NCBI RefSeq assembly: GCF_016921195.1
Contig: NZ_JAFGYF010000001.1
Span: 310,001-374,000, forward strand
Direction: 5' to 3'
DNA from: Cellulosimicrobium cellulans
GTDB lineage: Bacteria; Actinomycetota; Actinomycetes; Actinomycetales; Cellulomonadaceae
Length of the DNA: 64,000 nt
Part shown: in pieces, positions 1-62,000 of the stretch
Position numbering within the stretch: position 1 is the stretch's first letter
Layout: each line of letters begins with the position of its first letter
Notes under the pieces: model-generated
What the model saw: the letters and a program-made list of their open reading frames with translations, nothing else
What the model was told of the DNA's origin: nothing
Databases searched by the model: none
Position numbers and translations under genes: made by a program

Positions 1-34
1 GGCCGGGCGGAGGCGTCGCCCGGGAGGGCAGCGG

Positions 35-1168
35 TCAGGAGGTGCCGCGGCCTCCGCACGAAGCCACCGTCTCGCCCTCGACGACGACCGAGGCATCCCA
101 GCTCCACGCCGCCGGGAGCGCGGCGACGGTCGCCGCCGGGACGTGGACCGCGTCGAGCCCCGAGCCGTCGGGCGTGGGCGGGACGACTTCCCAGTCGCTG
201 CCGCCGTCGGCGCGCTGGTCGACCCGGAACGGCGACTCGAACGTGGCGAGGTCGTCGCCCTCCCACGTCTCGAGGCGCAGGACGAGCGCGGCGTCGAGCG
301 GCTGGTCGAGCGTGGCGTCCAGGTCCACGTCGACGGCGAACGACGCGTCGAGGCCCGTCTGGTCCCCGGCCTCGTCGGGGAGCGGGCTCGTCCGGGTCAC
401 GCCCCACCGGCTCTCGGTGCCCGGCGTCGACCAGCTGACGACCTCCACGTCCCCGACGGTCAGCGGTGACTCGTCCGACACCTTCGGTGTGCACGTCGCC
501 GTCCACACGTCGCCGCCGGTGTACGTGGCCGGGCCGAGGGCGAAGACGGCGCTCCCCACCGAGAGGACGGTCGCCGCGACGGTGACGGTGCGCGACGGCG
601 TCGGGCCGCCCATGCCGGTGCCGGGGCCGAGGAACGGCACGGGCGGGCGGACGCGCCGCAGCACGACCGTGCTGCACAGGGAGTCGGCGAACGTCCGGCG
701 CTGCGCGTGCCACAGCGGGCGGAGGAAGCCGATGTACAGGATGGCGTCGAGGAGATGGGCCAGGTGGCGCAGGACGGTGCGGATCAGCCCGGCGGGTCGC
801 CCGGTGGTGTCGTGCACGACGACGATGCCCACCGCCCGCTTGCCGGGCGTCGCCCCGGTCCAGCCCTGGAAGGCGAAGAGCGCGGCCGAGGTGCCGAGAG
901 CCCACCAGGTGCCGCCGGGGACCACGGTGTCCGCGGTCACGCCGAAGCTGATCCCCGGGAGCCAGGCCACCTCGTAGGCGGGCCCGACCGCGAGGAACAG
1001 CACCGTCGCGACGATCGCCGTGTCGAGCAGCGACGCGACGACGCGGCGGGACCAGCTCGCGTACTCCTCGCGCGCCGGCTCCGGAGAGAGCCCGGGAAGG
1101 GCGGGCTCGAGGTCTCCGGCTCCGACGGCGTGCGTCGGCCCCCTGCCGGTCGGGGCGTCGATGGCCAC
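35..1168 (-). CDS. RDD-domain membrane protein with extracytoplasmic C-terminal region
   Basis: This 377-residue protein carries an RDD-type membrane domain. The family motif is visible near residue 43 (SRRVVASLLDTAI), with hydrophobic segments around 46-66, 83-105 and 128-150. A TPGKRAVGI stretch and a hydrophilic FADSLCST segment are also typical of the family. A fourth hydrophobic segment near residues 198-216 precedes a region of about 160 residues with two cysteines (TCTPK and ASCGG) that probably faces outside. Most RDD proteins end soon after the third helix, so this tail is the unusual part. RDD proteins have been linked to ion transport in some bacteria, but no substrate can be read here. 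It is the first gene in the window and its upstream neighbour is transcribed in the same direction. Confidence 0.8.
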   Translation of the reverse strand: MAIDAPTGRGPTHAVGAGDLEPALPGLSPEPAREEYASWSRRVVASLLDTAIVATVLFLAVGPAYEVAWLPGISFGVTADTVVPGGTWWALGTSAALFAFQGWTGATPGKRAVGIVVVHDTTGRPAGLIRTVLRHLAHLLDAILYIGFLRPLWHAQRRTFADSLCSTVVLRRVRPPVPFLGPGTGMGGPTPSRTVTVAATVLSVGSAVFALGPATYTGGDVWTATCTPKVSDESPLTVGDVEVVSWSTPGTESRWGVTRTSPLPDEAGDQTGLDASFAVDVDLDATLDQPLDAALVLRLETWEGDDLATFESPFRVDQRADGGSDWEVVPPTPDGSGLDAVHVPAATVAALPAAWSWDASVVVEGETVASCGGRGTS

Positions 1169-2993: not shown

Positions 2994-3329
2994 CTACTCG
3001 GGGCGCGGCGCGTACATGATGACCGCGACGCCGACGAGGCAGAGCAGCGCGCCGACGACGTCCCAGCGGTCCGGGCGGAACCCGTCCACGACCATGCCCC
3101 ACGCGAGCGAGCCGGCGACGAACACCCCGCCGTACGCGGCGAGGATGCGGCCGAAGCCGGCGTCCGGCTGGAGCGTCGCGACGACGCCGTAGAGCCCGAG
3201 CGCGACGACGCCCGCCCCGATCCAGAGCCAGCCGCGGTGCTCGCGCAGCCCCTGCCACACGAGCCACGCCCCGCCGATCTCGAGCAGCGCGGCGAGGACG
3301 AACAGCGGGACGGAGCGCGCGAGATCCAT
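2994..3329 (-). CDS. UPF0060 (YnfA-like) small membrane protein
   Basis: This 111-residue protein has four hydrophobic helices and the UPF0060 pattern: [18 protein letters not shown] near the N-terminus, the loop [11 protein letters not shown], and a final [19 protein letters not shown] helix. YnfA-type proteins resemble the SMR/EmrE fold, and some members have reported efflux activity, but the general function is unresolved. The start is the ATG giving [10 protein letters not shown], because the long upstream open frame lacks coding character. It ends convergently 26 bases from the MerR gene. Confidence 0.9.
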
Positions 3330-3379: not shown

Positions 3380-3393
3380 TGCAAACGTAGGTC
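3380..3393 (-). promoter_or_regulatory. LacI-family operator, copy upstream of lacI
   Basis: On the minus strand this reads GACCTACGTTTGCA. It matches the two sites before the alpha-galactosidase operon at 13 of 14 positions. It lies 24 bases before the lacI start, consistent with autoregulation. The core resembles the CG-centred palindromes bound by LacI proteins, with one half (GTTTGCA) better conserved than the other. Confidence 0.7.
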
Positions 3394-3416
3394 GCGATTC
3401 GGCGTAGCCTTCCGGG

Positions 3417-4430
3417 GTGACTCCCAGACACCAGCCGCCCGTGCTCTCCGACGTGGCTGAGCTCGCCGGGGTGAGCGTCTCGACGGTCTCGCGCGTCCTC
3501 ACCGGACGCACCCCGGTGAGCCCGAAGCTCCGGGACAAGGTGCAGGCCGCCGTCTCCCAGCTCGGCTACCGCCCCAACGCCGCTGCGCAGACGCTCGTCA
3601 GCGGGCGCCGGTCGACGGTCGCGGTGCTCGCGCGCAACACGCTGCGCTACGGCTACGCCGCCACGCTCCAGGGGATCGAGGAGGCGGCACGCGCTGCGGG
3701 CTACGTCGTCTCGATCGCCGTCGTGGAGTCGGAGGCCCCTCGCGACCTGGGCCGCGCGGTCGACCTCGTCCTGTCGCAGTCGCTCGCCGGGGCGATCGTG
3801 GTCGAGTTCGACTCGCTCGGCGTGCGCACGCTCGAGGCGCTGCCGGAGGCGCTGCCGGTCGTGGCGGCCGCCGGCGCGCGGCGCAGGCAGGGGACGCGAC
3901 CGCACGCGTTCCTCGACGACCAGGCGGGTGGCGAGGAGGCGACGCGCTACCTCCTGGGACTGGGGCACCGCACCGTCCACCACGTCGCGATCCCCGCGAC
4001 CCGGCCGCGCAGCGGGCGCAGCTGGGGCTGGCGGCGTGCGCTCGACGCGGCCGGGGTCGAGCGGCCGGACGTCGTCCAGGCGAGCTACGACCCCGACTCC
4101 GGCTACGAGGCCGGGCTGCGGCTGGCCGACGACCCCGACGTCACCGCGGTCCTGTGCGGCAACGACGAGCTGGCGATCGGCGTCATGCGGGCGCTGGCCG
4201 AGCGCGGGCGTCGCGTCCCGGAGGACGTCAGCGTGGTCGGCTTCGACGACCAGCCGTTCGCGCGCATGTGGAGTCCCCCGCTGACGACGGTCGCCCAGGA
4301 CTTCGTCGACCTCGGGCGCCGGACCTTCGGGATGCTGGCGCGCTGGGTCGAGACGGGCGAGCCGCCGGAGGACAGCGCGACCCGGCCCACGCTCGTCGTC
4401 CGGGAGAGCGCCGCGCCGCCGCGCGCCTGA
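3417..4430 (+). CDS. LacI-family transcriptional regulator of the galactoside locus
   Basis: The protein has 337 residues. Residues 9-55 form the LacI helix-turn-helix and hinge ([20 protein letters not shown], then GYRPNAAAQ). Residues 65-330 form a periplasmic-binding-protein-like sensor with the family segments [12 protein letters not shown] and [21 protein letters not shown]. The start is a GTG at 3417. The gene faces the same way as the alpha-galactosidase/ABC operon that follows. Identical 14-base sites lie before both, so it most likely represses this operon and itself until a galactoside or arabinoside ligand binds. The ligand cannot be deduced from sequence alone. Confidence 0.9.
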
Positions 4431-4628
4431 CACCGCCGCGCGCCTGGCGCCCCCGCGCCCTCCTGCGCCTGACGGCGCCGCGCGCCCGGCGGCCCCGCGC
4501 GCGTGACGTCGCGCCCGTGGCGCTCGGGCTGGCGCACCCGCCTCCGACCGCGGGCTCGGCCTGGACGCCTCCGCCCCGTCCCGAGGTCCCTTCCCGTCGG
4601 GTCTCCGGCCGATCGGCCGCCGCATTTT

Positions 4629-4683
4629 GACCGACGTTTGCAGAACCTCGGATGTGTGCGCTAACTTCTGACCAACGTTTGCA
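4629..4683 (+). promoter_or_regulatory. Twin LacI operators and promoter region of the alpha-galactosidase/ABC operon
   Basis: Two near-identical sites, GACCGACGTTTGCA (4629-4642) and GACCAACGTTTGCA (4670-4683), are spaced 41 bases apart, close to four helical turns on one DNA face. A possible promoter lies between them: TTTGCA (4637-4642) as -35 and TAACTT (4662-4667) as -10, with 19 bases between. In that case the first operator covers the -35 and the second covers the transcription start. The preceding 4431-4628 is GC-rich spacer with degenerate GCGCGCC repeats and no gene. Confidence 0.7.
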
Positions 4684-4723
4684 GGACCCGCACCGGTGCG
4701 GGGCGACGAGGGAGTGCACGTAC

Positions 4724-6913
4724 GTGGTGAGCACAACGATGGCCGAGGACGTCCGGGACGCGGGCGGGACCCGTGTCTGGCCCCGGGTGGTGCGTCTGTC
4801 GGCGGCGGGTGCGGCCGTCGTCCTGCTGCTCCCCGAGGACGGTCTCCCCGAGGTCCTGCACTGGGGCTCCGACATCGGCGAGAGCCGGCAGGACCTCGAG
4901 GCCCTCGAGCGGGCGACCAGTCCCGTGCTCGCCACGAACGGGGTCGACCAGGGCGTCCGCGTCTCCCTGCTGCCGGAGTCCTGGACCGGCTGGACGGGCA
5001 CGCCGGGCCTCTCGGGGCACCGCGCGGGAGCGGCCTGGTCGCCGCGGTTCCGGCCGGTCCGGATCGACGTCGACCAGCGTCGGCACGGCGGCGCGGTCGT
5101 CGTCGAGGCGCACGACGCGGACGCAGGGCTGCGCCTCGGGCTGGAGCTGGAGATGCTGCCCTCGGGGCTGCTCCGCCTCCGCGGCCGGGTCACCAACGTC
5201 GCCACCCGGCCCTACGCGCTCCACGGGCTGCAGCTCGCCCTGCCGGTCCCCACGACGGCGGACGAGCTCCTCGATCTCGCCGGGCGCTGGGCCAAGGAGC
5301 GGGTCCCGCAGCGGTCCGCCTTCGTCGTCGGCTCCCACGTCCGCGAGGGCCGGCACGGCCGGACCGGCGCGGACGCCGCGACCGTGCTGGTCGCGGGGGA
5401 GCCGGGGTTCGGTTTCGAGGCCGGGGAGACGTGGGGCATCCACGTGGCCTTCAGCGGCAACCACGTCGTCGCCGCCGAGCGGACCTTCGACGGGCGCCGG
5501 CTCCTCCTCGGTGGCGAGCTGCTGCTCCCCGGCGAGGTCGAGCTCGCCCCGGAGGAGTCGTACACGGGCCCCTGGCTCTACGCGAGCCACGCGGACGGTC
5601 TCGACGCGCTCGCCGCGCGGTTCCACGACCACCTCCGCGCACGTCCCGGGCACCCGCGCACCCCGCGGCCGGTCGTCATGAACGTGTGGGAGGCCGTCTA
5701 CTTCGACCACGACCTCGACCGTCTCAAGGAGCTCGCCGACCTCGCCGCCGAGGTGGGGACCGAGCGGTTCGTCCTCGACGACGGGTGGTTCGGCGGGCGT
5801 CGGGACGACGCCACGGGCCTCGGCGACTGGACCGTGTCCGACGACGTCTGGGGAGACGGGCGCTTCGCCGACCTCGTCCGGCACGTCAAGGGGCGCGGGA
5901 TGGAGTTCGGCCTCTGGTTCGAGCCCGAGATGGTGAACCTGGACTCCGACCTCGCGAGGCGGCACCCCGAGTGGATCCTCCAGGTCGACGGACGGCTCCC
6001 CGTCGAGGCGCGGCACCAGCAGGTGCTCGACCTCTCGCACCCGGGCGCGTACGAGCACGTGCTGTCGAGCATCGTCGCGATCGTCCGCGAGCACGGCGTC
6101 GACTTCATCAAGTGGGACCACAACCGCGACCTCGTCGACGCGGGCTCGACGCGCACCGGTCGTGCCGGCGTCCACGAGCAGACGCTCGCGACCTACCGCC
6201 TCCTCGACGAGGTCCGCGAACGGTGCCCGGGGCTCGAGATCGAGTCCTGCTCGTCCGGCGGAGCGCGCGTCGACCTCGAGATCCTCGAGCGGACCGACCG
6301 GGTGTGGGCGTCGGACTGCATCGACGCCCACGAGCGACAGCAGATCCAGCGCTGGACGGCGCAGCTCCTCCCGCCCGAGCTGGTCGGCAGCCACGTGGGG
6401 GCCGACCGGGCCCACACGACCGGGCGCCGGCTCGACCTGTCGTTCCGCGCGGCCACGGCGCTCTTCGGCCACTTCGGGATCGAGTGGGACCTCTCGGAGG
6501 CCACCGAGGCGGAGCGGCGCGAGCTCGCCGACTGGGTGGAGCACTACAAGCAGGTGCGCCACCTCGTGCACACGGGCCGGGTCGTGCGCCGGTCGCTGGA
6601 GGGCGGCGACCTGTGGCTGCACGGCGCGGTGAGCCCGGACCGTACCGAGGCGCTGTACGGGCTCACGCTGCGCGAGCGCCACGTGACGTGGCCCGCGGGG
6701 CGGGTGCAGCTCCCCGGTCTCGACCCCGACGCGACCTACCTCGTCCGCCCGTCGGGGCCGCCGGTGGTCCGCGGGGGCGACCCGCGCTCGGTGCCCGCGT
6801 GGTGGGCGAGCGGGCTCCGGCTGAGCGGAGCGGCCCTCGGGTCCGTCGGGCTGAGCGTCCCCGCGCTCGACCCGGACCAGGCGGTGCTGATCCACGTGGA
6901 GGTGGAGCGATGA
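4724..6913 (+). CDS. GH36 alpha-galactosidase, intracellular
   Basis: This 729-residue enzyme hydrolyses terminal alpha-galactosides. The layout is GH36: an N-terminal beta-supersandwich (about 1-310), a TIM barrel beginning [15 protein letters not shown], and a C-terminal beta domain. The catalytic nucleophile is D465 in FIKWDHNRD, and the acid/base is D531 in [10 protein letters not shown]. Other family segments visible are [19 protein letters not shown] and [10 protein letters not shown]. There is no signal peptide, so the substrate is cleaved after import. The GTG at 4724 has GAGGGAG nine bases upstream. The longer frame to 4652 would run into the operators and is rejected. The stop overlaps the next gene (ATGA). 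Confidence 0.93.
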
Positions 6914-7845
6914 CCACGCAGGTGACGGGGGCGCGGCCGGGGGCCGCCCCTCCGGCGGCGCGACGGCGGTCGCAGGAGCTGCGGAACCTGCCGGCGGCCC
7001 TGCTGTTCGTGCTGCCCGCCGGGATCGGGTTCGTCGTGTTCTTCCTGTGGCCGGCGCTCCGGGGGATCTGGCTGAGCTTCACCGACTCGACCGCCTTCAA
7101 CACCGGCGGGTTCGTGAGGCTCGAGAACTACCAGCGGATGGTCGCGGACCCGGTCTTCTGGAACGCCTTCAAGGTGACCGTCTGGTACGTGCTGCTCAAC
7201 ATCGGCCTCCAGACGGTGCTCGCGGTGGTGGTGGCGGTGCTCATGCACCGGCTCACGCGGTCCCTGGTGGTCCGCGGCATCATCCTCACGCCGTACCTCG
7301 TGTCCAACGTCGTGGCGGCGATGCTCTTCCTCATGCTGCTCGACTATCAGCTCGGCTTCGTCAACGAGCTGGTCGAGTCGCTCGGCGGCGACCGCGTCAT
7401 GTTCTTCGGCGACCAGTCCCTCGTGATCCCGACGATCGCCCTCGTCAACGTGTGGCGCCACCTCGGCTACACGGCGCTCCTGCTGTTCGCGGGCCTCCAG
7501 ACGATCCCCGAGAACCTCTACGAGGCGGGCCGCGTCGACGGCGCGTCCGAGCTGCGCATGTTCCGGTCGATCACGATGCCGCTCCTGCGCCCGTACCTGG
7601 GCCTCGTGCTCATCGTGACGATGATCGGCTCGTTCCAGGTGTTCGACACCGTCTCCGTCGCGACCCAGGGCGGGCCGGCGAACGCGTCGAACGTCATCCA
7701 GTACTACATCTACGAGGTCGCCTTCAGCCGCGGGTACGACTTCGGGTACGCGTCGGCCATGTCGGTCGCGCTGCTCGTGGTGCTCGCCGCGATCGCGGTC
7801 GTCCAGTTCCGGCTCACCCGGGCGAACCAGAACGACATGGCGTGA
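6910..7845 (+). CDS. Carbohydrate ABC transporter permease (MalF/UgpA type)
   Basis: This 311-residue inner-membrane permease has six predicted helices and an EAA loop (EAGRVDGASELRMFRSITMPLL, residues about 216-237) that docks the ATPase. It belongs to the CUT1 family, which imports oligosaccharides. Its start overlaps the alpha-galactosidase stop, which indicates translational coupling. The partner permease follows after seven bases and the binding protein after that. No dedicated ATPase gene is present. CUT1 systems in actinobacteria often share a housekeeping MsiK-type ATPase encoded elsewhere. Confidence 0.92.
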   Translation: MTTQVTGARPGAAPPAARRRSQELRNLPAALLFVLPAGIGFVVFFLWPALRGIWLSFTDSTAFNTGGFVRLENYQRMVADPVFWNAFKVTVWYVLLNIGLQTVLAVVVAVLMHRLTRSLVVRGIILTPYLVSNVVAAMLFLMLLDYQLGFVNELVESLGGDRVMFFGDQSLVIPTIALVNVWRHLGYTALLLFAGLQTIPENLYEAGRVDGASELRMFRSITMPLLRPYLGLVLIVTMIGSFQVFDTVSVATQGGPANASNVIQYYIYEVAFSRGYDFGYASAMSVALLVVLAAIAVVQFRLTRANQNDMA

Positions 7846-7852
7846 GGTACCG

Positions 7853-8803
7853 ATGACCACCACAGCTCCTGCTCCCGTCGCCACGCCGACCGGACCAGCC
7901 CGCCCCGAGCCGGGACCCCGCCGGCGCCGCCGCACCACCCCGGGCCGGGTCCTCGGCTGGGTCGTGCTCGCGCTCCTCCTGGTCGTGACGCTCTTCCCGT
8001 TCTACTGGATGCTCCGCACCGCGTTGTCCACGAACGCCGCGCTGCCGGGAGGAGCGGCCGACCCGCTGCCCGTGGGGCTCAGCGGGGAGGGCTTCCGCCG
8101 TGCGCTCGGGCTCGCCACCGCGCAGGAGTCGCTCGCGGACGGCGGGTCCGGCGCCTCGATGGACTTCCCGCGCTACCTGCTGAACTCCGTCGTGGTCGCG
8201 ACGCTCGTCACCGTGTGCCAGGTGTTCTTCTCGGCGATGGCGGCGTACGCGTTCGCGCGGCTGCGCTGGCCGGGACGCGACGCCGTGTACGCGGTGTTCC
8301 TCGCCGGCCTGATGGTCCCGACCATCTTCACGCTGCTGCCGAACTTCCTGCTCGTGCGCGACCTCGGTCTGCTGGACACGCTGCCCGGCATCGCGCTCCC
8401 CACGATGCTCATGACGCCGTTCGCGGTGTTCTTCCTCCGCCAGTTCTTCGCCGGGATCAGCTTCGAGATCGAGGAGGCGGCGAAGCTCGACGGCGCGGGC
8501 CGGTTCCGGACGTTCTTCACCATCGTGCTGCCCATGGCGTCGCCCGCCGTGGTCACGCTCGCGGTCCTCACGTACATCACGGCCTGGAACGACTACCTGT
8601 GGCCCCTGCTCGTGAGCCAGTCCGACGACTCACGAGTCCTGACCCTCGCGCTCGGGATCTTCCGGGCGCAGTCCCCCCAGGCGTCCCCGGACTGGGCGGG
8701 GCTCATGGCGGCGACGCTGCTCGCAGCGCTGCCGATGCTCCTGCTCTTCCTCGCCTTCGCGAAGAGGATCGTCAACTCGATCGGCTTCACCGGGATCAAG
8801 TAG
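7853..8803 (+). CDS. Carbohydrate ABC transporter permease (MalG/UgpE type)
   Basis: This 316-residue protein is the second CUT1 permease. A proline- and arginine-rich cytoplasmic tail of about 35 residues precedes the first helix (WVVLALLLVVTLFPFYWML). The EAA motif EEAAKLDGAGRFRTFFTIVL (about 204-223) is intact, and the C-terminus FAKRIVNSIGFTGIK is typical of MalG proteins. An insertion of about 45 residues after helix 1 is common in this family. It pairs with the permease immediately upstream. Confidence 0.92.
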   Translation: MTTTAPAPVATPTGPARPEPGPRRRRRTTPGRVLGWVVLALLLVVTLFPFYWMLRTALSTNAALPGGAADPLPVGLSGEGFRRALGLATAQESLADGGSGASMDFPRYLLNSVVVATLVTVCQVFFSAMAAYAFARLRWPGRDAVYAVFLAGLMVPTIFTLLPNFLLVRDLGLLDTLPGIALPTMLMTPFAVFFLRQFFAGISFEIEEAAKLDGAGRFRTFFTIVLPMASPAVVTLAVLTYITAWNDYLWPLLVSQSDDSRVLTLALGIFRAQSPQASPDWAGLMAATLLAALPMLLLFLAFAKRIVNSIGFTGIK

Positions 8804-8895
8804 CCGCTCGGCACCAGGGGGGCACGGGCCGGCGGCCGTCGGACCCGACAACCATTCCGCACCATCGACGCGGATGTCTGCGAAAGGGAACAACG

Positions 8896-10236
8896 ATGCG
8901 AAAGTCTGTCCACGTCGCGGTGGCGGGATGCCTGGTCCTGGCCCTCGGTGCGTGCTCGTCGGGAGGCGGCTCCGGCTCGGGAGGGTCGGGCGAGCAGATC
9001 TCGTACTGGCTCTGGGACTCGAACCAGGTGCCCGCCTACCAGGAGTGCGCGGCCGCGTTCACGGAGCAGAACCCGGACATCACGATCAAGATCGAGCAGT
9101 TCGCCTGGGACGACTACTGGACGAAGCTCACCGCCTCCTTCGTGGGCGGCTCCGGCCCGGACGTCTTCGTCGACCACCTGTCGAAGTACGGCGAGTTCGC
9201 GGCGCAGGGCCAGATCGTCGCGCTCGACGACCTCGTGGAGGAGGACTCGGTGGACACGTCGGTCTACGCCGAGGGCCTCGTCGACCCGTGGCGGTACGCC
9301 GACGGCTCGCTCTACGGCCTGCCGAAGGACTGGGACACGACCGCCTTCTTCTACAACGAGGCGCTGGTCGCCGACGCCGGCTACACGGCGGAGGACCTGT
9401 GGGCCGCCGACTGGAACCCCGACGACGGCGGCACGTTCGAGCAGATCGTCGCGCACCTGACGGTGGACGCGAACGGCGTGCGCGGCGACGAGGCCGGGTT
9501 CGACAAGTCGAACGTCGCGGTCTACGGCCTGGGCATCAACCCGAACTTCGAGGAGACGGGCCAGATGCAGTGGGCCAACTTCACGGGGTCGCTCGACTGG
9601 GACTACCTCGACGAGAACCCGTGGGGCACGCGCTACAACTTCGACGACCCGGAGTTCCAGAAGGCGGTCGACTGGTTCTACGGGCTCGCGGACAAGGGCT
9701 ACGCCCCCGCCGCCGGCGTCTTCTCCGAGGAGACGCTCACCCAGGTGGGTTCGGGCAAGGTCGCCATGGGGACCAACGGCTCCTGGGCGACGGGGACCTT
9801 CAAGGCGCTCGAGGGCGTCGAGGTCGGGATCGCGCCCGGGCCGGTCGGGCCGACGGGTGAGCGTGCCTCGGTCTTCAACGGCGTCGCCGACTCGATCAGC
9901 GCGTCGTCGAAGAAGCAGGACGCGGCCTGGGAGTGGGTCAAGTTCCTCGGGTCCAGCGCGTGCCAGGACCTCGTCGCCGAGCACGCCGTCGTGTTCCCCG
10001 CGATCCCCGGCTCCGCCGACAAGGCGCTGGCGGCCTTCGACGCGAAGGGCTGGGACGTCTCGGCGTTCTTCAGCTACCGCGAGGAGGGGCGCACGTTCCT
10101 CCCGCCGATCACCGTCCGGGCCGGCGAGGTGAACGCGATCGCGTCGGTCGCCTTCGAGGACATCGCGCTCGGGAACAAGGACGCGTCGTCGCTGACCGAG
10201 GCCAACGAGCAGATCAACGCGGTCCTCGCGGACTGA
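8896..10236 (+). CDS. ABC transporter sugar-binding lipoprotein
   Basis: This 446-residue family 1 solute-binding protein has a lipoprotein signal (MRKSVHVAVAG, then LALGAC with the lipidated cysteine at position 20) and a Gly/Ser linker before the mature domain. The ligand-binding fold shows GSGPDVFVDH, the KDWDTTAFFYN segment and multiple aromatic residues suited to stacking against sugar rings. The ATG at 8896 is preceded by GAAAGGGAA. It delivers a glycoside, probably an alpha-galactosyl di- or oligosaccharide judging from the alpha-galactosidase, to the two permeases encoded just upstream. Confidence 0.92.
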   Translation: MRKSVHVAVAGCLVLALGACSSGGGSGSGGSGEQISYWLWDSNQVPAYQECAAAFTEQNPDITIKIEQFAWDDYWTKLTASFVGGSGPDVFVDHLSKYGEFAAQGQIVALDDLVEEDSVDTSVYAEGLVDPWRYADGSLYGLPKDWDTTAFFYNEALVADAGYTAEDLWAADWNPDDGGTFEQIVAHLTVDANGVRGDEAGFDKSNVAVYGLGINPNFEETGQMQWANFTGSLDWDYLDENPWGTRYNFDDPEFQKAVDWFYGLADKGYAPAAGVFSEETLTQVGSGKVAMGTNGSWATGTFKALEGVEVGIAPGPVGPTGERASVFNGVADSISASSKKQDAAWEWVKFLGSSACQDLVAEHAVVFPAIPGSADKALAAFDAKGWDVSAFFSYREEGRTFLPPITVRAGEVNAIASVAFEDIALGNKDASSLTEANEQINAVLAD

Positions 10237-10248
10237 GCACCAGCACGA

Positions 10249-10279
10249 CGGCGGGGTGCGGCGTCGTCGCACCCCGCCG
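10249..10279 (+). terminator. Hairpin between binding-protein gene and secreted glycosidase
   Basis: A perfect 12-bp stem (CGGCGGGGTGCG with CGCACCCCGCCG) encloses a seven-base loop, starting 12 bases after the binding-protein stop. No T-run follows. It could be an attenuator or mRNA-stabilising hairpin that sets the ratio of binding protein to the downstream glycosidase, or a terminator. Confidence 0.55.
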
Positions 10280-10335
10280 GCGGGGCGGTCGTCCCGGGCG
10301 CCCCGCTTCCCGACAGCACGAAGGAGTGTGGACAG

Positions 10336-13239
10336 ATGCACGGCAGGAGAGCGGACGGCGGGCGCAGGATGCTCCGCCGGCTCACGGCAGGGTTGACCGC
10401 GTCCGTGGTCGTGGCGACCGGCGCGGTGACCGTGCTGCCCGGTGCGGCGGCCGCGGAGGACGTGGAGGTCCTGGCCGTCGACCTGGCCGCGTCGACGGGC
10501 GCGGTGCAGGGCGGAGCCTCGGGCATGCTCTACGGGCTGGGTGACGACGGCGTGCCCACCGACCCGATCATCGCGGGGGCCCGGCCGACCAACGTCACCC
10601 AGAAGGCACCGCACGGCGCGCAGCACCCCAACGGGGACCCGCTCGACGTCGAGCGCTCGCTCTTCGAGAACGGGGGCGAGTACCTGATGGTGAACATCCA
10701 GGACTACTACCCCGACTGGCCCTACAACGGCGGCAAGCGTCCCGAGGACTTCGACACCTACCTCGACATCGTCCGCACCGTCGTGACGAGCATCGTCGAG
10801 GAGTCCGACCACCCCGAGCGGTACGTCTTCACGCCGTTCAACGAGCCCGACGGCATCAACTGGTACGGCGACTGGAACGTCATGCGGGACACGTTCCTCG
10901 CGGACTGGAAGGCCGCCTACGAGACCATCAAGGAGGTCTACCCGGAGGCGAGGATCGCCGGCCCCGGTGACGCGTGGTGGCACGGGACGAGCACCCGCCA
11001 GATCCTCACCTACGCCAAGGCCAACGACGTCCTGCCGGACATGTGGACCTGGCACGAGCTCGGTGTCGAGAACCTTGCGACCTTCCGCTCGCACCTCGCC
11101 GAGTTCCGTCGGATCGAGCAGGAGGTCGGGGTCGGCCCGCTGCCCGTGAACATCACGGAGTACGCGATGCGCCGCGACATGGGCGTGCCCGGTCAGCTGG
11201 TGCAGTGGATCTCGATGTTCGAGGACGAGAAGGTCGACGCCCAGACGGCGTACTGGACGTTCGCGGGCAACCTCAACGACAACATGGCCAAGAACAACGG
11301 CGCGAACGGCGCGTGGTGGCTGCTCAAGTGGTACGGCGACCTCACGGGGGAGACCGTGGAGCTCACCCCGCCGGCGCTGAACAAGGTCGACACGCTGCAG
11401 GGGCTCGCCGCCCTGGACGCCGAGAAGCGCCAGGCGACGGTGCTCTTCGGCGGTGGCTCGAAGGACGTCCGCGTCGACGTGTCGGGGGTCGACACGGAGG
11501 TCTTCGGCGACGAGGTCGACGTCCAGGTGCGCCGGGCGGAGTTCACCGGGCAGGAGGGCGAGGCACTGGCGCCGCCGGTCGTGGTGGCCGAGCGCGCGCC
11601 GGTGGTCGACGGCGCGGTGCAGGTCGTCGTCCCGAACGACGACCGCCACTCGGCCTACCAGGTCGTGGTGACGCCGGCCCTCGACGAGGCGCCCGTGGCG
11701 GACACGACGTGGAGGCAGCGCGTGGAGGCGGAGTCGACCCGGCTGTCGGGGCTGACGGTCGTGGACCGGCCGGCCGGTGACGCGTGGACGTTCGCGGCCT
11801 CGGGCGCCAAGGACGTGCGCGGGTTCACGACGGCGGGGGCGTCGGCGTCGTGGACGGTCGACGTCCCGACGACGGGTACCTACCGCCTGGGCGTCATCGC
11901 GGGGGTGAACGGCCCGAACGTGGGGCCGGGTTCGCACGCGCTGTTCGTCGACGGCGCTGCGGCGGGCACGATCCGCTACGAGGCCGGGTTCTCGGACTCC
12001 TACCGCGGCAAGGCGGAGGTCCTGGTCGAGCTCGAGGCGGGTGCGCGCGAGCTGTCGGTGCGTGCGAGCGCCGACGGGTCGACCGTGCTGCCCGGGGCGA
12101 ACGTCACGCTCGACCGGTTCGACCTCGAGCGCGTGGACGGTCCGGACACGACGACCTACCCGGCGAACCTCGCCCGCCTGGAGGGCGCGTCCGTCTCCTA
12201 CGACGCCGGCGAGGCCGGGCGCGTGCACGTCGGCGGCGAGGGCACGGCGACGTTCTACGTGGCCGCGCGCGAGACGGGGTACTACGACGTCACGCTCGAC
12301 TACTCCGCGGACGCGCCGACCACGGTCGGCCTGCGTCTCAACGGTCGCGAGGTCGTGGGCCTCGAGGCCGACGCCGCCGGTGCGCGCACCTCGACGGCGC
12401 GGGTGCACCTCGCGCAGGGGATCACGGAGCTCGCGGTCACCGCGCCGGGCGGCATCTCGCTCGGCTCGCTGACGACCACGCGAGCGGCCGCGTCCGACGA
12501 GACGGTCGAGACGGTCGAGGCCGAGGACGTGCTCCAGCTCTCGGGCGGTGCGCGCATCGAGTCGGTGGCGCAGCCGACCGACGTGTCGGGGCGGCAGGTC
12601 TCCTGGCTGGGCGGCAGCGAGCAGAGCGTCGCGGTGTGGCCGCGGGCCGAGGGCGTGGGCGCGGGCCAGTACGACCTCGTGGTGCGGTACGCGAACGCGG
12701 AGAAGAACACCGGGCACGCGTACAACACCGACGTCATCACGCGCTTCCTCGACGTGAGCGAGGCCGGGGGCGGCACCACGCGCGGCGCCTTCCGGCACAA
12801 CTACTCGTGGAAGGGCTTCTGGACCCACACGGTGGCCCTGGACCTGACCACCGACGACGGTGCCCTGACGCTGGGCAACGCCACGGGCTGGGCGCCGAAC
12901 CTGGACACGCTCGCCCTGGCGCCGCTCGTGCTCGACGTGAGCAACGGGGAGTCCTCGCCGGGCGTCGCGGTGGAGGTCCAGGTGCAGCCACGCTGCCTGG
13001 CGGGCACCGCGTACCTCGCCGTGCGTGCGACGAACGAGGAGCCGTCCGCGGTCGACCTCGACGTCGTCACGGCGTACGGCACCCGCGACTTCGCCGCGGT
13101 CGCGCCCGAGCGCTCGGGCTACCAGTCGTTCTCGACGCGCGCGGCCCGTCTCGAGGCGGGCTCCGTCACGGTGACCGCGTCGACGGACGGGCGCGACGGC
13201 CGGTACGACGTCGCGTACGACGCGCTCGACTGCGGCTGA
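10336..13239 (+). CDS. Secreted GH39-like glycosidase with beta-sandwich modules and a C-terminal Cys-pair module
   Basis: This 967-residue exported enzyme has a signal peptide of about 40 residues ending GAAAA. Residues 50-375 form a clan GH-A TIM barrel resembling GH39, with acid/base E170 in FTPFNEPDG and nucleophile E275 in ITEYAMRRD. Three beta-sandwich, CBM35-like regions follow at about 457-600, 609-715 and 724-865. The last region begins VETVEAEDV. Residues 871-967 form a module (RCLAGTAYLAVRATN to DALDCG) shared with the GH2 enzyme at 59011-62625. It is the last gene of the LacI-controlled unit, so it probably releases the glycoside that the ABC system imports. A 3-O-alpha-galactosyl-arabinofuranosidase activity, known in GH39, would fit; beta-xylosidase is an alternative. 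Confidence 0.75.
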   Translation: MHGRRADGGRRMLRRLTAGLTASVVVATGAVTVLPGAAAAEDVEVLAVDLAASTGAVQGGASGMLYGLGDDGVPTDPIIAGARPTNVTQKAPHGAQHPNGDPLDVERSLFENGGEYLMVNIQDYYPDWPYNGGKRPEDFDTYLDIVRTVVTSIVEESDHPERYVFTPFNEPDGINWYGDWNVMRDTFLADWKAAYETIKEVYPEARIAGPGDAWWHGTSTRQILTYAKANDVLPDMWTWHELGVENLATFRSHLAEFRRIEQEVGVGPLPVNITEYAMRRDMGVPGQLVQWISMFEDEKVDAQTAYWTFAGNLNDNMAKNNGANGAWWLLKWYGDLTGETVELTPPALNKVDTLQGLAALDAEKRQATVLFGGGSKDVRVDVSGVDTEVFGDEVDVQVRRAEFTGQEGEALAPPVVVAERAPVVDGAVQVVVPNDDRHSAYQVVVTPALDEAPVADTTWRQRVEAESTRLSGLTVVDRPAGDAWTFAASGAKDVRGFTTAGASASWTVDVPTTGTYRLGVIAGVNGPNVGPGSHALFVDGAAAGTIRYEAGFSDSYRGKAEVLVELEAGARELSVRASADGSTVLPGANVTLDRFDLERVDGPDTTTYPANLARLEGASVSYDAGEAGRVHVGGEGTATFYVAARETGYYDVTLDYSADAPTTVGLRLNGREVVGLEADAAGARTSTARVHLAQGITELAVTAPGGISLGSLTTTRAAASDETVETVEAEDVLQLSGGARIESVAQPTDVSGRQVSWLGGSEQSVAVWPRAEGVGAGQYDLVVRYANAEKNTGHAYNTDVITRFLDVSEAGGGTTRGAFRHNYSWKGFWTHTVALDLTTDDGALTLGNATGWAPNLDTLALAPLVLDVSNGESSPGVAVEVQVQPRCLAGTAYLAVRATNEEPSAVDLDVVTAYGTRDFAAVAPERSGYQSFSTRAARLEAGSVTVTASTDGRDGRYDVAYDALDCG

Positions 13240-13262
13240 CCGGCTGACGGTCGCCGCGACGT

Positions 13263-13305
13263 CGCTCGGGCCCCGCACGGAAGTGGATCGTGCGGGGCCC
13301 GAGCG
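13263..13305 (+). terminator. Rho-independent-like terminator of the carbohydrate operon
   Basis: A perfect 16-bp stem, CGCTCGGGCCCCGCAC paired with its complement, encloses an 11-base loop. It starts 24 bases after the glycosidase stop. The T-tract is weak, as is usual in high-GC actinobacteria. Confidence 0.75.
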
Positions 13306-13361
13306 TCGTGCTCTCCAGGGAGGTAGGAGGGCCGAGGACCCCGAGGCGGAGCGCCGCGCGG

Positions 13362-46214: not shown

Positions 46215-46255
46215 CGGGGGAGAGGCCGCCGGACCCTCTACCCGCGTGCCGTCAG
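46211..46255. terminator. Terminator-like dyad between convergent genes
   Basis: CTGACGG (46211-46217) and CCGTCAG (46249-46255) pair as an outer stem, and AGAGG with CCTCT as an inner one. The dyad overlaps the stop codons of both convergent genes. Confidence 0.4.
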
Positions 46256-47322
46256 TCGTCGAGCCGCTCGGGGAGGCCGAAGAGCGGAAACCACGACGCC
46301 GTGTCGAGGAACGCGTTGATCGCCGTCACCTTCCCGTCCTCGGTCTCGATCACCTGGAGCGCCCACGGCTCGTGCCCGCCGTCCGCCGCGCGGCGGTACT
46401 GGCCGAACCCGAACGTGCCGTTCACCGCCACCGGGACCATGCGGGAGCCCTCGCACTCGTGGCCCGGGCCCGTCATCCAGGTGACGATGTCCGCCGTCCC
46501 CCGCATCCACAGCGGGTACGGCGGCATGGACAGCGTCGCGTCCTCATGGAGGATCGCGACGAGCGCGTCCATGTCGTAGCGCTCGAACGCGTCGAGGTAG
46601 CGCTCGAGCAGCAGCCTCTCCTCGTCGCCGAGACCGGCGTTCGAGGCGACGGGCGAGGGCGCGGTCTCGCCGTCCTCGCCGAGACCGGAGCTGTCCCAGT
46701 GCGCCCGTGCCGCCATCGTCGCGCGCGCTCGCTGGAGGGCGCTGTTCACCGACGCCACGGACGTGTCGAGGAGCTCCGCGACCTCGCTCGCCTGCCAGCG
46801 CAGCACCTCGCGCAGCAGGAGGACGGCGCGCTGCTTGGGCGGCAGGAACTGCAGCGCGGCGACGAACGCGAGCCGGATCGTCTCGCGGCCCACGGCGACC
46901 TGCGCCGGGTCACCGTCGTGCGGCAGCACGCGGTCGTCCGGGACCGGCTCGACCCACGTCTCCTCCGGGAGCACCTGGCCCAGGTTCTCGGCCTCCGGCG
47001 CCTGCGGGCCGCCGAGCCCCATCGGTCGCTCACGCCGCTTGCGTGCGCCCAGCGCGTCGAAGCACACGTTCGTCGCGATGCGGTACAGCCAGGAGCGCAG
47101 CGACGAGCGCCCCTCGAACCGGTCGTAGGAGCGCCACGCGCGCAGGAACGTCTCCTGCACCGCGTCGTCCGCCTCGAACGAGGACCCCAGCATGCGGTAG
47201 CAGTAGCCGGTGATCTCGCGGCGGTGGCCGTCGAGGACCGCGTCGAGGTCGGCGCGCGCGGGCAACGGGGCGGGGTCGGTCGCGGTGGCTTCCGGGCTCG
47301 TCGGGGTGGCGAGGTCGGTCAT
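46252..47322 (-). CDS. ECF sigma factor with SnoaL-like C-terminal domain (TIGR02960/SigX5 type)
   Basis: This 356-residue factor has sigma region 2 (YCYRMLGSSFEADDAVQETF, then WRSYDRFEGRSSLRSWLYRI), a linker of about 50 residues, and region 4 (LPPKQRAVLLLREVLRWQAS, then TSVASVNSALQRARATM). A C-terminal SnoaL-like domain (about 235-350; ERYLDAFERYDMDALVAIL, then YPLWMRGTADIVTWMTGPG) takes the place of a separate anti-sigma factor and may bind a small molecule. This is the sigma-70 group known as TIGR02960 or ECF41-like. The regulon is unknown. Confidence 0.88.
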   Translation of the reverse strand: MTDLATPTSPEATATDPAPLPARADLDAVLDGHRREITGYCYRMLGSSFEADDAVQETFLRAWRSYDRFEGRSSLRSWLYRIATNVCFDALGARKRRERPMGLGGPQAPEAENLGQVLPEETWVEPVPDDRVLPHDGDPAQVAVGRETIRLAFVAALQFLPPKQRAVLLLREVLRWQASEVAELLDTSVASVNSALQRARATMAARAHWDSSGLGEDGETAPSPVASNAGLGDEERLLLERYLDAFERYDMDALVAILHEDATLSMPPYPLWMRGTADIVTWMTGPGHECEGSRMVPVAVNGTFGFGQYRRAADGGHEPWALQVIETEDGKVTAINAFLDTASWFPLFGLPERLDD

Positions 47323-47462
47323 GGCGCTGCCTCTCAGGACTCGATGGTCTCGACGTTCTCGAGGGGTCACGAAGGTCTCGTGGGGATCACGAGGTCGCAC
47401 GGGCCGGGGGAGTGGCCCACCTCACACACGCTACCTCTGCCCTCCGACACGGCACAGGGGTG

Positions 47463-57995: not shown

Positions 57996-58835
57996 ATGAT
58001 CGACCGGCCTGGGCTCGCGAGCTTCCTGCGCACGCGCCGCGAGGCGCTCCAGCCCGAGGACGTCGGGCTGCCGCGTGGCCGGCGGCGCCGGACGAGCGGC
58101 CTCCGGCGGGAGGAGGTGGCCGTGCTGTGCCACATCTCCACCGACTACTACTCCCGCCTGGAGCGCGAGCGCGGCCCGCAGCCGTCGGAGCGGATGGTCG
58201 CCTCGATCGCGCAGGGACTCCACCTCTCGCGCGACGAGCGTGACCACCTCTTCCGCCTCGCGGGCCACCGTCCGCCCGAGCGCGGCCCGGGCGGCGACCA
58301 CATCAGCCCGGGCATGCTGCGCATCTTCGACCGGCTCACCGACACCCCGGCCGAGATCGTCACCGAGCTGGGGGAGTCGCTGCGGCAGACGCCGCTCGGA
58401 GCGGCGCTCGTCGGCGACAACGGCCGGTTCACCGGGCCGATGCGCAGCATCGGGTTCCGGTGGTTCGCGCAGCCCGGCGCGCGGGACCTCGTCCCGCCCG
58501 AGGAGCACGAGTTCTACTCCCGGATGTACGCGTCCGGGCTCCGCCGGGTCGCCACGCTGCGCGGCCCGCGGTCGCGCGCGGCACAGCTGCGGGACGTGCT
58601 CAGCGCACGCAGCGAGGAGTTCCGCGCGGTGTGGAGCCGGCACGAGATCGGCGTCGTGCCGCGCGAGACCAAGCGCTACCAGCATCCCGAGGTCGGCCTG
58701 GTCGAGGTGGCCTGCCAGGTCCTGCTCGACCCGGACCAGGCGCACTCGCTGCTCGTCTACACCGCCGTCCCGGGCACCGAGAGCCACGAGAAGCTCCGGT
58801 TCCTCGCCACCATCGGGGCTCGGACACCGGCCTGA
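57996..58835 (+). CDS. XRE-family regulator with MmyB-like ligand domain
   Basis: This 279-residue protein has an N-terminal helix-turn-helix ([20 protein letters not shown], then [21 protein letters not shown], with [12 protein letters not shown]). A PAS-like MmyB ligand-binding domain fills residues 105-265 ([20 protein letters not shown], then [20 protein letters not shown]). Members bind fatty acids in methylenomycin-type regulators. The ATG at 57996 has GGGGGAGGA upstream. It is divergent from the SDR gene and probably controls it. Confidence 0.9.
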
Positions 58836-58869
58836 CCCGGCGTCGCGCGATGTCGCATGCTGTCACCTG

Positions 58870-58898
58870 TTGTCTTTTTCTGGTGGAAGTTGTTTGAT
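58870..58898 (+). promoter_or_regulatory. Possible promoter in an AT-rich patch before the secreted GH2 gene
   Basis: TTGTCT (58870-58875) and TTTGAT (58893-58898) are 17 bases apart, in a stretch (58865-58902) that is clearly more AT-rich than the rest of the window. The 112 bases to the start leave room for an operator, but none is obvious. Confidence 0.3.
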
Positions 58899-59010
58899 TC
58901 TGGGGAGACGTCGTGCGGTGCGCCAAGGAGGGCGTCCGCCGGACACAGGTGCCCGGCACGCCGCCGCGTCGGAGCAGTCCCTGGATTCACTCGACGAGGA
59001 GGAAGCACGG

Positions 59011-62000
59011 ATGCAGTCCATGACAGCGGTAGCACCCCCGCGGGGCAGACCGGCGAGGATCGTGGCGGCGGCGTTGGCCGCCGCGCTCACGGTCCCCCTG
59101 GCCGTGGCGACGGCGGTCGGGGCGACGGCGTCGCCGTCGGCCACCGCCACGGACGAGGCGGGCGCGGCTGACGTCGCGGCCCAGGACCTCGCTCTCGACA
59201 ACGGCCTCAAGGGCGAGTACTTCCTGTCCGGCGGCCCCGGCTGGCCGCTCACCGACCTCAAGGCCACGATCCCCGACCAGCGGATCGAGTTCCCCAACCT
59301 GGTCCCGACGTTCGCGGAGCTCACCGGCCGCGGCGAGCGCACCTCCGCGCGCTGGACGGGCCAGATCACGCCCGACTACAGCGAGGCGTACACGTTCTCC
59401 GCGATCGGCGACAACGGCTTCCGGCTCTGGATCGACGACGAGCTCGTCATCGACCACTGGGTCGACGACTGGGACGTCGAGCAGACGTCCGCCCCGGTCC
59501 AGCTGCAGGCTGGCCAGGAGTACGCGTTCCGCATGGAGATGTTCCAGAACACCGGCGGGTCGCACCTCCGGTTGCGGTGGCAGAGCCCCTCGCAGGAACG
59601 TGAGATCGTGCCGACCGACGCGTTCACCTACCCCGACGACTTCGTCGTCTTCCCCGCCCAGGCCGCGCTCGAGAGCGACGGCACGAGCCTCAACGTGACG
59701 TTCCAGGACACCGCGGGCGGTGTCGACGAGAGCCTCGTCGACCACCTCAAGGTCCAGGTGGACCAGCTGGCGTGGCCCGTCGCGCAGGTCGCTGCGCAGG
59801 GCGACGTCCTCGGCGTCACGCTCGCCGAGCCCGTCGACCGCGCGTCGACCGCTCGCCTCGTCTACGACGGCGAGGGCGACCTGACGGTCGGCGGCGAGAA
59901 GGTCGGCTCGCTCAACCTGCCGGTCACGAACGGGTCCGACTTCCGGATCCAGACCCCGTGGGCTGACGACTTCGACCCGACCAACCCCCTGCCCGAGTAC
60001 CCGCGCCCGCAGCTCACGCGCGACGCGTGGCAGAACCTCAACGGCGTCTGGCAGTTCGAGGCGGCGGAGTCCGACGACGCCGTGCCGAGCGGCCGCGACC
60101 TCGAGGAGGAGATCGTCGTCCCGTACGCGGTCGAGTCCGCGCTGTCCGGCATCGAGCGGCGCGAGGACGACATGTTCTACCGCCGCACGTTCGAGGTGCC
60201 GCAGGACTGGGCGGTGGGGAGCGACAACCGCCTGCGCATCAACTTCGGCGCGGTCGACTACCTCGCCACGGTGTACGTGAACGGCACCGAGGTCGGCACG
60301 CACCGCGGTGGGTACGAGTCGTTCTCCGTGGACGTCACCGACGCGCTCGTCGAGGGCTCCGAGCAGGAGCTCGTGGTGCGCGCCGTCGACACGACGGACG
60401 GCAGCAACCAGGCCGTCGGCAAGCAGACGCTCAACCCCGGCGGCATCTTCTACACCCCGACGTCGGGCATCTGGCAGACGGTGTGGATGGAGCCGGTCCC
60501 CACCGCGGCGATCGACGCCGTCGTCACGACGCCCGACGTCGAGGCGGGCGTGCTCGCGGTGACCGTGCAGTCGGCCTCCGCGTCCGACGACGCCGAGGTC
60601 ACCGCCGTCGTGCGGGACGCCGAGGGCGCCGAGGTCGGCAGCGTCACCGGCGCCGCGAACGAGCTGCTCGCCGTCGAGATCCCGGACGCGCACCTGTGGT
60701 CGCCCGAGGACCCGTACCTCTACGACGTCGACGTCACGCTCACCGACGGCGGTTCCACCGACACCGTGGCGTCGTACGCGGGCATGCGCTCGATCGAGGT
60801 CTCCGAGGTGGACGGCGTCCAGCGCATCCTGCTCAACGGCGAGAACACCTTCCTCATGTCGACGCTCGACCAGGGCTACTGGCCGGACGGCATCTACACG
60901 CCGGCGTCCGACGAGGCGTACGTGTTCGACATCCAGGCCCACAAGGACCTGGGCTTCAACACCCTGCGCAAGCACATCAAGGTCGAGCCGGCCCGGTTCT
61001 ACTACCACGCCGACACCCTCGGCCTGATGATCTGGCAGGACATCCCCAGCGGCTGGTTCAACAACGGCGACACGAACCCGGCGTCCCGCGTCTTCTGGGA
61101 GCAGGAGATGAAGGACATCATCGACCAGCACCGCTCGGTGCCGTCGATCGTGGGCTGGGTGACGTTCAACGAGGGCTGGGGCGAGTGGAACCTCGCCGAC
61201 ACGGCGCGGATCGGCGACACGATCGACGAGTACGACCCGAGCCGCATCCTCAACACGCACTCGGGCTACAACTGCTGCGCGTCGAAGGGCGACTCCAAGA
61301 CGGGCGACATCATCGACTGGCACCAGTACACCGGCCCGGCGCTGCCGAAGCCGGACGCCACGCGCGCCGCGATCGACGGCGAGCACGGCGGCTTCTCGAT
61401 GAGCGTCCCGGGCCACATGTGGCCCGGCGTGTCCGCCAACCCGTACGGCGGCGTCGCGGACAGCGAGGCGCTGACCGACGCGTACGTGCAGAACACGGAG
61501 AAGCTGGTCCGGCCTGCGCAGTGCTACCTGTCCGGCTCGGTGTACACGGAGATCTCCGACGTCGAGAACGAGCTCAACGGCTTCTACACCTACGACCGCC
61601 GCGTGCTCAAGATGGACGCCGCGCGCGTCAAGGACGTCAACGAGCGCGTGATCGCGGCGGCGAAGCAGGGCTCCGCGCCGGTCGACCCCGGCACCCCGGG
61701 CCTGACCGGCACGGGCCGCTGGTCGTTCGACGAGGGGCAGGGCACGACGGCGGCCGACGGCGTGGGCGACCACCCGGCGACCGGCGCGGGGACCTGGGTG
61801 GCCGGGCACGACGGCACCGGGTCCGCGATCAGGCTCAACGGCACGAACCAGTCGTTCGCGACCGAGGGCCCCGTCGTCGACACGACCGGCTCCTACACGG
61901 TCTCCGCCTGGGTCCAGCTCGACAAGACGCCCGGCGGCGCGTGGTCGACGATCGTCGGCCAGGACTCGGTCACGGGCTCGAGCGCGTTCTACCTCCAGTA

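Follow-up and report, generated by a model that had tools for sequence, protein, structure and literature searches.

The window analyzed here, a 64,000-nucleotide stretch of Cellulosimicrobium cellulans DNA (contig NZ_JAFGYF010000001.1, positions 310,001 to 374,000, in a genome of 4,580,223 bp), carries a LacI-family regulator gene followed by genes for a GH36 enzyme, two ABC importer permeases, a solute-binding lipoprotein, and a secreted GH39-type enzyme. From sequence comparison, we consider it likely that these genes form a locally regulated operon for alpha-D-Galp-(1->3)-L-Ara, the side-chain disaccharide of gum-arabic-type arabinogalactan protein. The secreted enzyme, to judge by its fold, catalytic residues, and Asn120, would release the disaccharide outside the cell; the binding protein and the two permeases, which are linked to it, would import the sugar; and the cytoplasmic GH36 enzyme, with its family and pocket motif, would split it into galactose and L-arabinose. 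LacI would repress the operon through operator O1, lying on the -35 element, and operator O2, at the transcription start, and probably also through a weaker site, O3, at its own promoter, and the imported sugar or its product would lift this repression. The original prediction had proposed both a LacI regulon and a pathway of release, import, and cleavage. Conservation, the specificity residue, and the matching type of GH36 all lend this proposal good support.

The secreted enzyme and its GH36 partner

The weak score of the Pfam GH39 model meant that the description of the secreted enzyme as GH39-like, made in the original prediction, needed other evidence. The description holds despite that sub-cut-off score, as the domain has the GH39 catalytic fold, with NF2152 (5u22) among the two closest solved structures, and two catalytic glutamates, Glu170 and Glu275, that are present in 59 of 59 aligned rows; their catalytic roles were assigned by hand alignment with published residues. 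At the specificity position, the window enzyme has Asn120 (Asn119 in GAfase), a column that we matched by hand via Glu110 of NF2152 and the Trp/Tyr spacing given in PMC10688797. The catalytic domain is 95% identical to its counterpart in C. cellulans NBRC 15516, Cellulosimicrobium being the closest named relative in the set of loci found, and the whole gene is present at 91% identity or more in 4 of 17 genomes of the genus, this one included, among the matches listed.

No signal peptide was seen by eye in the GH36 enzyme, which is therefore predicted to be cytoplasmic. It matches the GH36 alpha-galactosidases AgaB (4fnq, its best solved match; E value, 7.8e-87) and AgaA (4fnr; E value, 1.3e-84) over approximately residues 151 to 685 of 728, and it has the Melibiase domain and both pocket aspartates of a GH36 alpha-galactosidase. 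The second Asp of the DDGW motif would hold the galactose 6-hydroxyl. DDGW is kept in the window enzyme and in 22 of 22 GH36s of its type, and the other type has DAGW or DCGW in all 65 cases (four of them duplicate records). The NCBIfam model NF053652, which describes the BAD_1528 type of beta-L-arabinopyranosidase GH36 and has a curated cut-off of 1100 bits, gave the window GH36 100.2 bits, under the cut-off, and gave five enzymes of the window type 91 to 114 bits; the 12 other-type GH36s scanned, all from loci with Tyr at the specificity position, scored 553 to 627 bits, likewise under 1100.

A scan of relatives, in which the counts cover the best 80 of 194 (the named loci), found Asn at residue 120 in 19 and Tyr in 61. 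The two markers paired without a crossed case: 18 Asn loci had a GH36 of the alpha-galactosidase type and 53 Tyr loci had one of the BAD_1528 type. Nine loci had no GH36 above 300 bits, among them L074, which is a 3.6-kb contig, and L097, in which an end fragment of a BAD_1528-type GH36 scores 111 bits.

A second set, the family set, comprised 20 loci that each contain a GH39 gene of the family, nine of them window-like (class N) and 11 Tyr. The permeases of the family Tyr loci are only ~28 to 34% identical to those of the window, and their LacI proteins are 50 to 57% identical, with a different recognition helix. The sequence ATGAAAGCG occurs in both stretches searched (the GH39-LacI gap and the 500 bp following LacI) in 8/8 loci, or 8 of the 11 family Tyr loci. 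As a shared operator of Tyr loci, however, ATGAAAGCG is not general: TGAAAGCG was present anywhere in only 28 of the 61 named Tyr loci.

Some individual loci depart from these arrangements. At L166, a Tyr-type GH39 gene adjoins a BAD_1528-type GH36 gene plus one of the alpha-galactosidase type, and another contig of the same genome carries the Asn-type GH39 L167. The single record that comprises L045 and L069 (Isoptericola halalbus) keeps LacI, GH36, GH39, and both operators, and its stretch gave no match for the permeases or binding protein of the operon. The window genome itself has a GH39-type paralog, L157 (G000:C1:57810-60695), which is 37% identical, has permease-like and LacI-like matches nearby, and differs from both classes in its specificity region. 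Two reading frames share the GH39 gene at L060/L041, L057, and L129, reflecting either decay or an assembly error.

Predicted operator sites and operon promoter

Three matching 14-bp sites had been described, at 3380 to 3393 on the minus strand and at 4629 to 4642 and 4670 to 4683 on the plus strand, and we found them exactly there, the last two starting 41 bp apart. Allowing two mismatches to the 14-mer, the window holds five matches against 0.75 expected, a number reached in none of 100 shuffles, and the only exact matches in the whole genome are the three window sites; their occurrence by chance was rejected. At up to two mismatches the genome has 32 places, versus 17 for a reversed control pattern, so inexact copies elsewhere mean little and the exact ones alone stand out. 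The single place in the genome with one mismatch to the 14-mer is C1:623695-623708, which is absent from the places found with the 16-mer at up to three mismatches. The 16-bp core TGACCAACGTTTGCAG occurs at one exact and one single-mismatch place in the genome, both in the window operon. O3 is one of 10 genome places with three mismatches to the core, and since the reversed control also gives 10 places in all, we regard O3 as the weaker site.

The pair before the GH36 gene is conserved. TCTGACCAACGTTTGCAGAA or near variants occur twice there, 41 bp apart, in all nine class-N family loci, and 18 of the 19 named Asn loci have an operator pair with a spacing of 38, 41, or 42 bp, the nineteenth being a 3.6-kb contig that does not reach the region. 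Sixty of the 61 named Tyr loci have no site, and the other has one single site with three mismatches. Across 44 sites chosen for their likeness to the motif (21 of 22 loci gave 22 pairs, with none from L153 and with one extra overlapping pair in L077, so that one site is counted twice), 12 of the 16 core positions are invariant, the other four are the same in 42 or 43 of the 44 sites, and the central CG is present in every one. L077, from Microbacterium testaceum StLB037, also has a third, degenerate operator-like copy at ~3997, 33 bp before the pair.

TTGCAG lies in the right half of the first site in 19 of 20 loci, with TTGCAT in its place in the remaining one (L138). In 20 of 20 loci, TAnnnT follows this hexamer by 17 or 18 bp and lies directly before the second site or touches it; where the operators are spaced at 38 bp, the promoter spacer shortens only from 18 to 17 bp. 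We infer a sigma-70-type promoter with its -35 element in O1 and its expected transcription start covered by O2. These conserved sites, beside a regulator gene and at the operon that it would regulate, are what is expected of a local LacI-family sugar regulon. The lacI transcript itself is likely leaderless. An O3-type site precedes lacI in each of the three congeneric loci (L039, L040, and, as a variant, L041) despite differing upstream sequence, and a similar site is present in L056. A word search did not find it in the other five class-N family loci, and O3 is therefore likely to be autoregulatory in some lineages only.

Alternative readings and the history of the pairing

The GH39-type enzyme might instead be of the AAfase type, serving an operon for beta-L-Arap-(1->3)-L-Ara, as found on larch arabinogalactan. 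The enzyme family is the same, Tyr homologs are commoner (61 of the 80 named loci), and GAfase itself is weakly active as an AAfase (PMC10688797). However, residue 120 is Asn rather than Tyr, the GH36 enzyme keeps DDGW and scores far below the cut-off of the BAD_1528 model, and the family has separate Tyr-type sister operons with the other GH36 type and distant permeases, so that we consider this reading improbable. About equally improbable is a general alpha-galactoside operon, for melibiose or raffinose, with a secreted arabinan-type enzyme only loosely attached. Raffinose-type uptake with a GH36 enzyme is a common arrangement, and no Melibiase match other than this GH36 enzyme was found in the genome. 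Raffinose, however, does not call for a secreted enzyme of arabinofuranosidase type, all 18 named Asn loci with neighboring genes available keep GH39 together with this type of GH36, and the GH39 enzymes of L138, L056, and L153 come from another clade and yet have Asn. That the enzyme frees a different disaccharide, for example a 1,2-linked arabinobiose, is suggested by the closeness of NF2152, reported to be an alpha-L-(beta-1,2)-arabinofuranobiosidase, from Neocallimastix frontalis. NF2152 has Glu at the specificity position (PMC10688797), whereas the window enzyme has Asn, and the neighboring gene is of the alpha-galactosidase type, not an arabinofuranosidase; we hold this to be the least probable of the three.

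Several observations nevertheless weigh against an operon for alpha-D-Galp-(1->3)-L-Ara with the pairing and regulation described above. The Pfam GH39 model gave the enzyme 16.4 bits, under its cut-off of 26; only a single enzyme has had its specificity residue probed by mutation (PMC10688797); and identity to the Asn-type enzyme of L167, a probable member of the Bifidobacteriaceae, is only ~45%. Seven loci, all Tyr (L092, L098, L108, L116, L123, L135, and L136), have no GH36 match in stretches of 20 to 21 kb. Only three changes of residue 120 are needed on the GH39 tree, so the pairing with GH36 type has had few independent tests. By hand count, the operator is symmetric at only 4 of 8 half-site positions, unlike most LacI-family motifs, which are even palindromes with a central CG (PMC4052901). 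L153 has Asn, a window-type GH36, and the importer, but its LacI-type match is only 30% identical and it has no operator pair, so LacI with its operators is not a universal component. Finally, a generic sigma-70 scanner did not call the operon promoter.

The GH39 tree was built from 59 of 97 extracted catalytic domains, with the marker column excluded and the Tyr rows thinned; L156 (from the same genome as L068), L040, and L158 were omitted. The starred branches of the tree force at least three changes between Asn and Tyr. The Asn enzymes fall into the window clade (19 rows), a group of L138, L056, and L153, and L167, which is nested in a Tyr clade separate from that of the window and on whose short contig no GH36 is visible. 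The GH36 tree places L056 with L066 and sets L138 apart, and the placement of L153 in it is unsure. Because the two trees differ for L056 and L138, it seems that in some lineages a distant, Asn-bearing GH39 gene has taken the place of the earlier one within the operon. Long branches make placements unsure for L157, L058, L155, and L129 in the GH39 tree and for L153 and L166 in the GH36 tree.

Taking the two trees and the promoter region together, we lean, somewhat beyond an even chance, toward the view that the chemistry of the import cassette can be read from one residue. Across Actinomycetota, the state would have switched three times or more, always with the matching GH36 where the partner is seen, and some lineages would have swapped the secreted enzyme for a distant Asn one while keeping GH36 and the importer (and, in L138 and L056, also LacI and the operators). 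O1 would double as the -35 element and O2 would cover the start site, with the promoter spacing held at 17 to 18 bp while the operator spacing drifts among 38, 41, and 42 bp.

Beyond the Actinomycetota, the Tyr-type GH39 genes of L123, L135, and L136 belong to proteobacteria (Kushneria aurantia and Methylobacterium) and have no GH36 or LacI matches nearby; they were probably gained by horizontal transfer.

Locus layout and relation to published clusters

The features of the locus are listed in Table 1. The start at 4652 listed for the GH36 open reading frame was rejected as too early because the gene would then span both operators, and an open reading frame at 8874 to 9860 was rejected as being in the wrong frame. 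Beyond the last gene, the region from 13240 to 13310 has a fold z score of -5.31, with none of 200 shuffles equally good, and a pattern scan called no T-tailed terminator. There is no ATPase gene within the operon, so the ATPase must come from elsewhere, and we assume a shared one. The C-terminal domain of the GH39-type enzyme (residues ~873 to 967) has no Pfam family above the cut-off and recurs, among the matches listed, at ~39 to 63% identity in other large open reading frames of Cellulosimicrobium and its kin; it may be a surface or export module common to these proteins.

Table 1 Features of the locus (window coordinates unless residues are given)
Feature	Position	Strand	Basis
YnfA-family gene, upstream of lacI	2994-3329	-	Pfam
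O3, operator-like, upstream of lacI, weaker copy	3380-3393	-	Exact 14-mer; 3 mismatches to 16-bp core
Putative lacI -10, TAGCCT, 6 nt before GTG start	3405-3410	+	By eye; TAnnCT shortly before GTG in relatives
LacI-family repressor	3417-4430	+	Pfam: LacI HTH and periplasmic-binding-like sensor domain
Operator O1, holds putative -35	4628-4643	+	Motif match, conservation
Putative -35, TTGCAG, inside O1	4638-4643	+	Conservation
Putative -10, TAACTT, 18 bp after -35	4662-4667	+	TAnnnT conserved; inference
Operator O2, just after -10	4669-4684	+	Motif match, conservation
GH36 alpha-galactosidase	4727-6913	+	Pfam Melibiase, 387.3 bits; GH36 N and C domains
ABC importer permease A	6910-7845	+	BPD_transp_1 (Pfam)
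ABC importer permease B	7853-8803	+	BPD_transp_1 (Pfam)
Solute-binding lipoprotein	8896-10236	+	SBP_bac_8/SBP_bac_1 (Pfam); start and lipobox-like signal by eye
Secreted GH39-type enzyme, putative GAfase class	10336-13239	+	Fold, catalytic residues, Asn120
Signal	Residues ~1-40		By eye
Catalytic domain	Residues 43-448		Asn120, putative acid/base Glu170, nucleophile Glu275
CBM35	Residues 462-577		
CBM35-like	Residues 718-864		Match to 2wz8
C-terminal add-on	Residues ~873-967 (12952-13236)		
Hairpin, 18-bp stem, 3' of last gene; probable terminator without T run	13263-13305	+	Fold z

The genome has one arabinose isomerase match and one GH30_2 match. A Pfam scan of 20 open reading frames elsewhere in the window showed no other evident arabinogalactan gene, bar one open reading frame of GH2 type. 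A 1516-amino-acid open reading frame at 58075 to 62625 has PA14, GH2 sugar-binding, and laminin-G-like domains and is possibly a large GH2-type enzyme. Another, at 46252 to 47400, joins sigma-70 factor regions to a following SnoaL-like domain.

The suggestion that the locus would be an unreported single-operon version of the pathway does not stand. Clusters in Bifidobacterium longum JCM7052 and Bifidobacterium pseudocatenulatum MCC10289 bring together GH39, GH36, a LacI-type regulator, a solute-binding protein, and two permeases (PMC10688797), and the window operon is therefore a further case of a published cluster type. Like the window, the GAfase cluster of JCM7052 (GH39 BLGA_00340 and GH36 BLGA_00330, or BlAga3) has Asn at the specificity position and a GH36 alpha-galactosidase partner, and it is said to resemble that of B. 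pseudocatenulatum, with a LacI-type regulator, binding protein, and permeases. It differs in having an ATPase gene (BLGA_00350) and in that its GAfase is wall anchored (PMC10688797), whereas no anchor was seen by eye in the window enzyme. The AAfase cluster of MCC10289 has the same gene types as the window; its GH39 has a signal peptide and galactose-binding-like domains and lacks a membrane anchor, but it carries Tyr116 where the window enzyme has Asn, and its GH36 is placed in the BAD_1528 branch (PMC10688797). For Cellulosimicrobium, Isoptericola, or Microbacterium, the matches listed from the open-licence literature held nothing relevant on the pathway, which is weak evidence of its absence from print, and the available portion of PMC5928203 mentions neither GH39 nor GH36.

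The plant-gum side-chain pathway of gut bifidobacteria would thus extend to Cellulosimicrobium, Isoptericola, Myceligenerans, Serinibacter, Agromyces, and Microbacterium. Reading the Asn or Tyr state together with the GH36 motif would give a sequence rule for predicting the disaccharide that such a locus handles, and the compact twin-operator promoter, with its paralogous sister operons, may serve as a test case for the divergence of LacI regulators and their operators.

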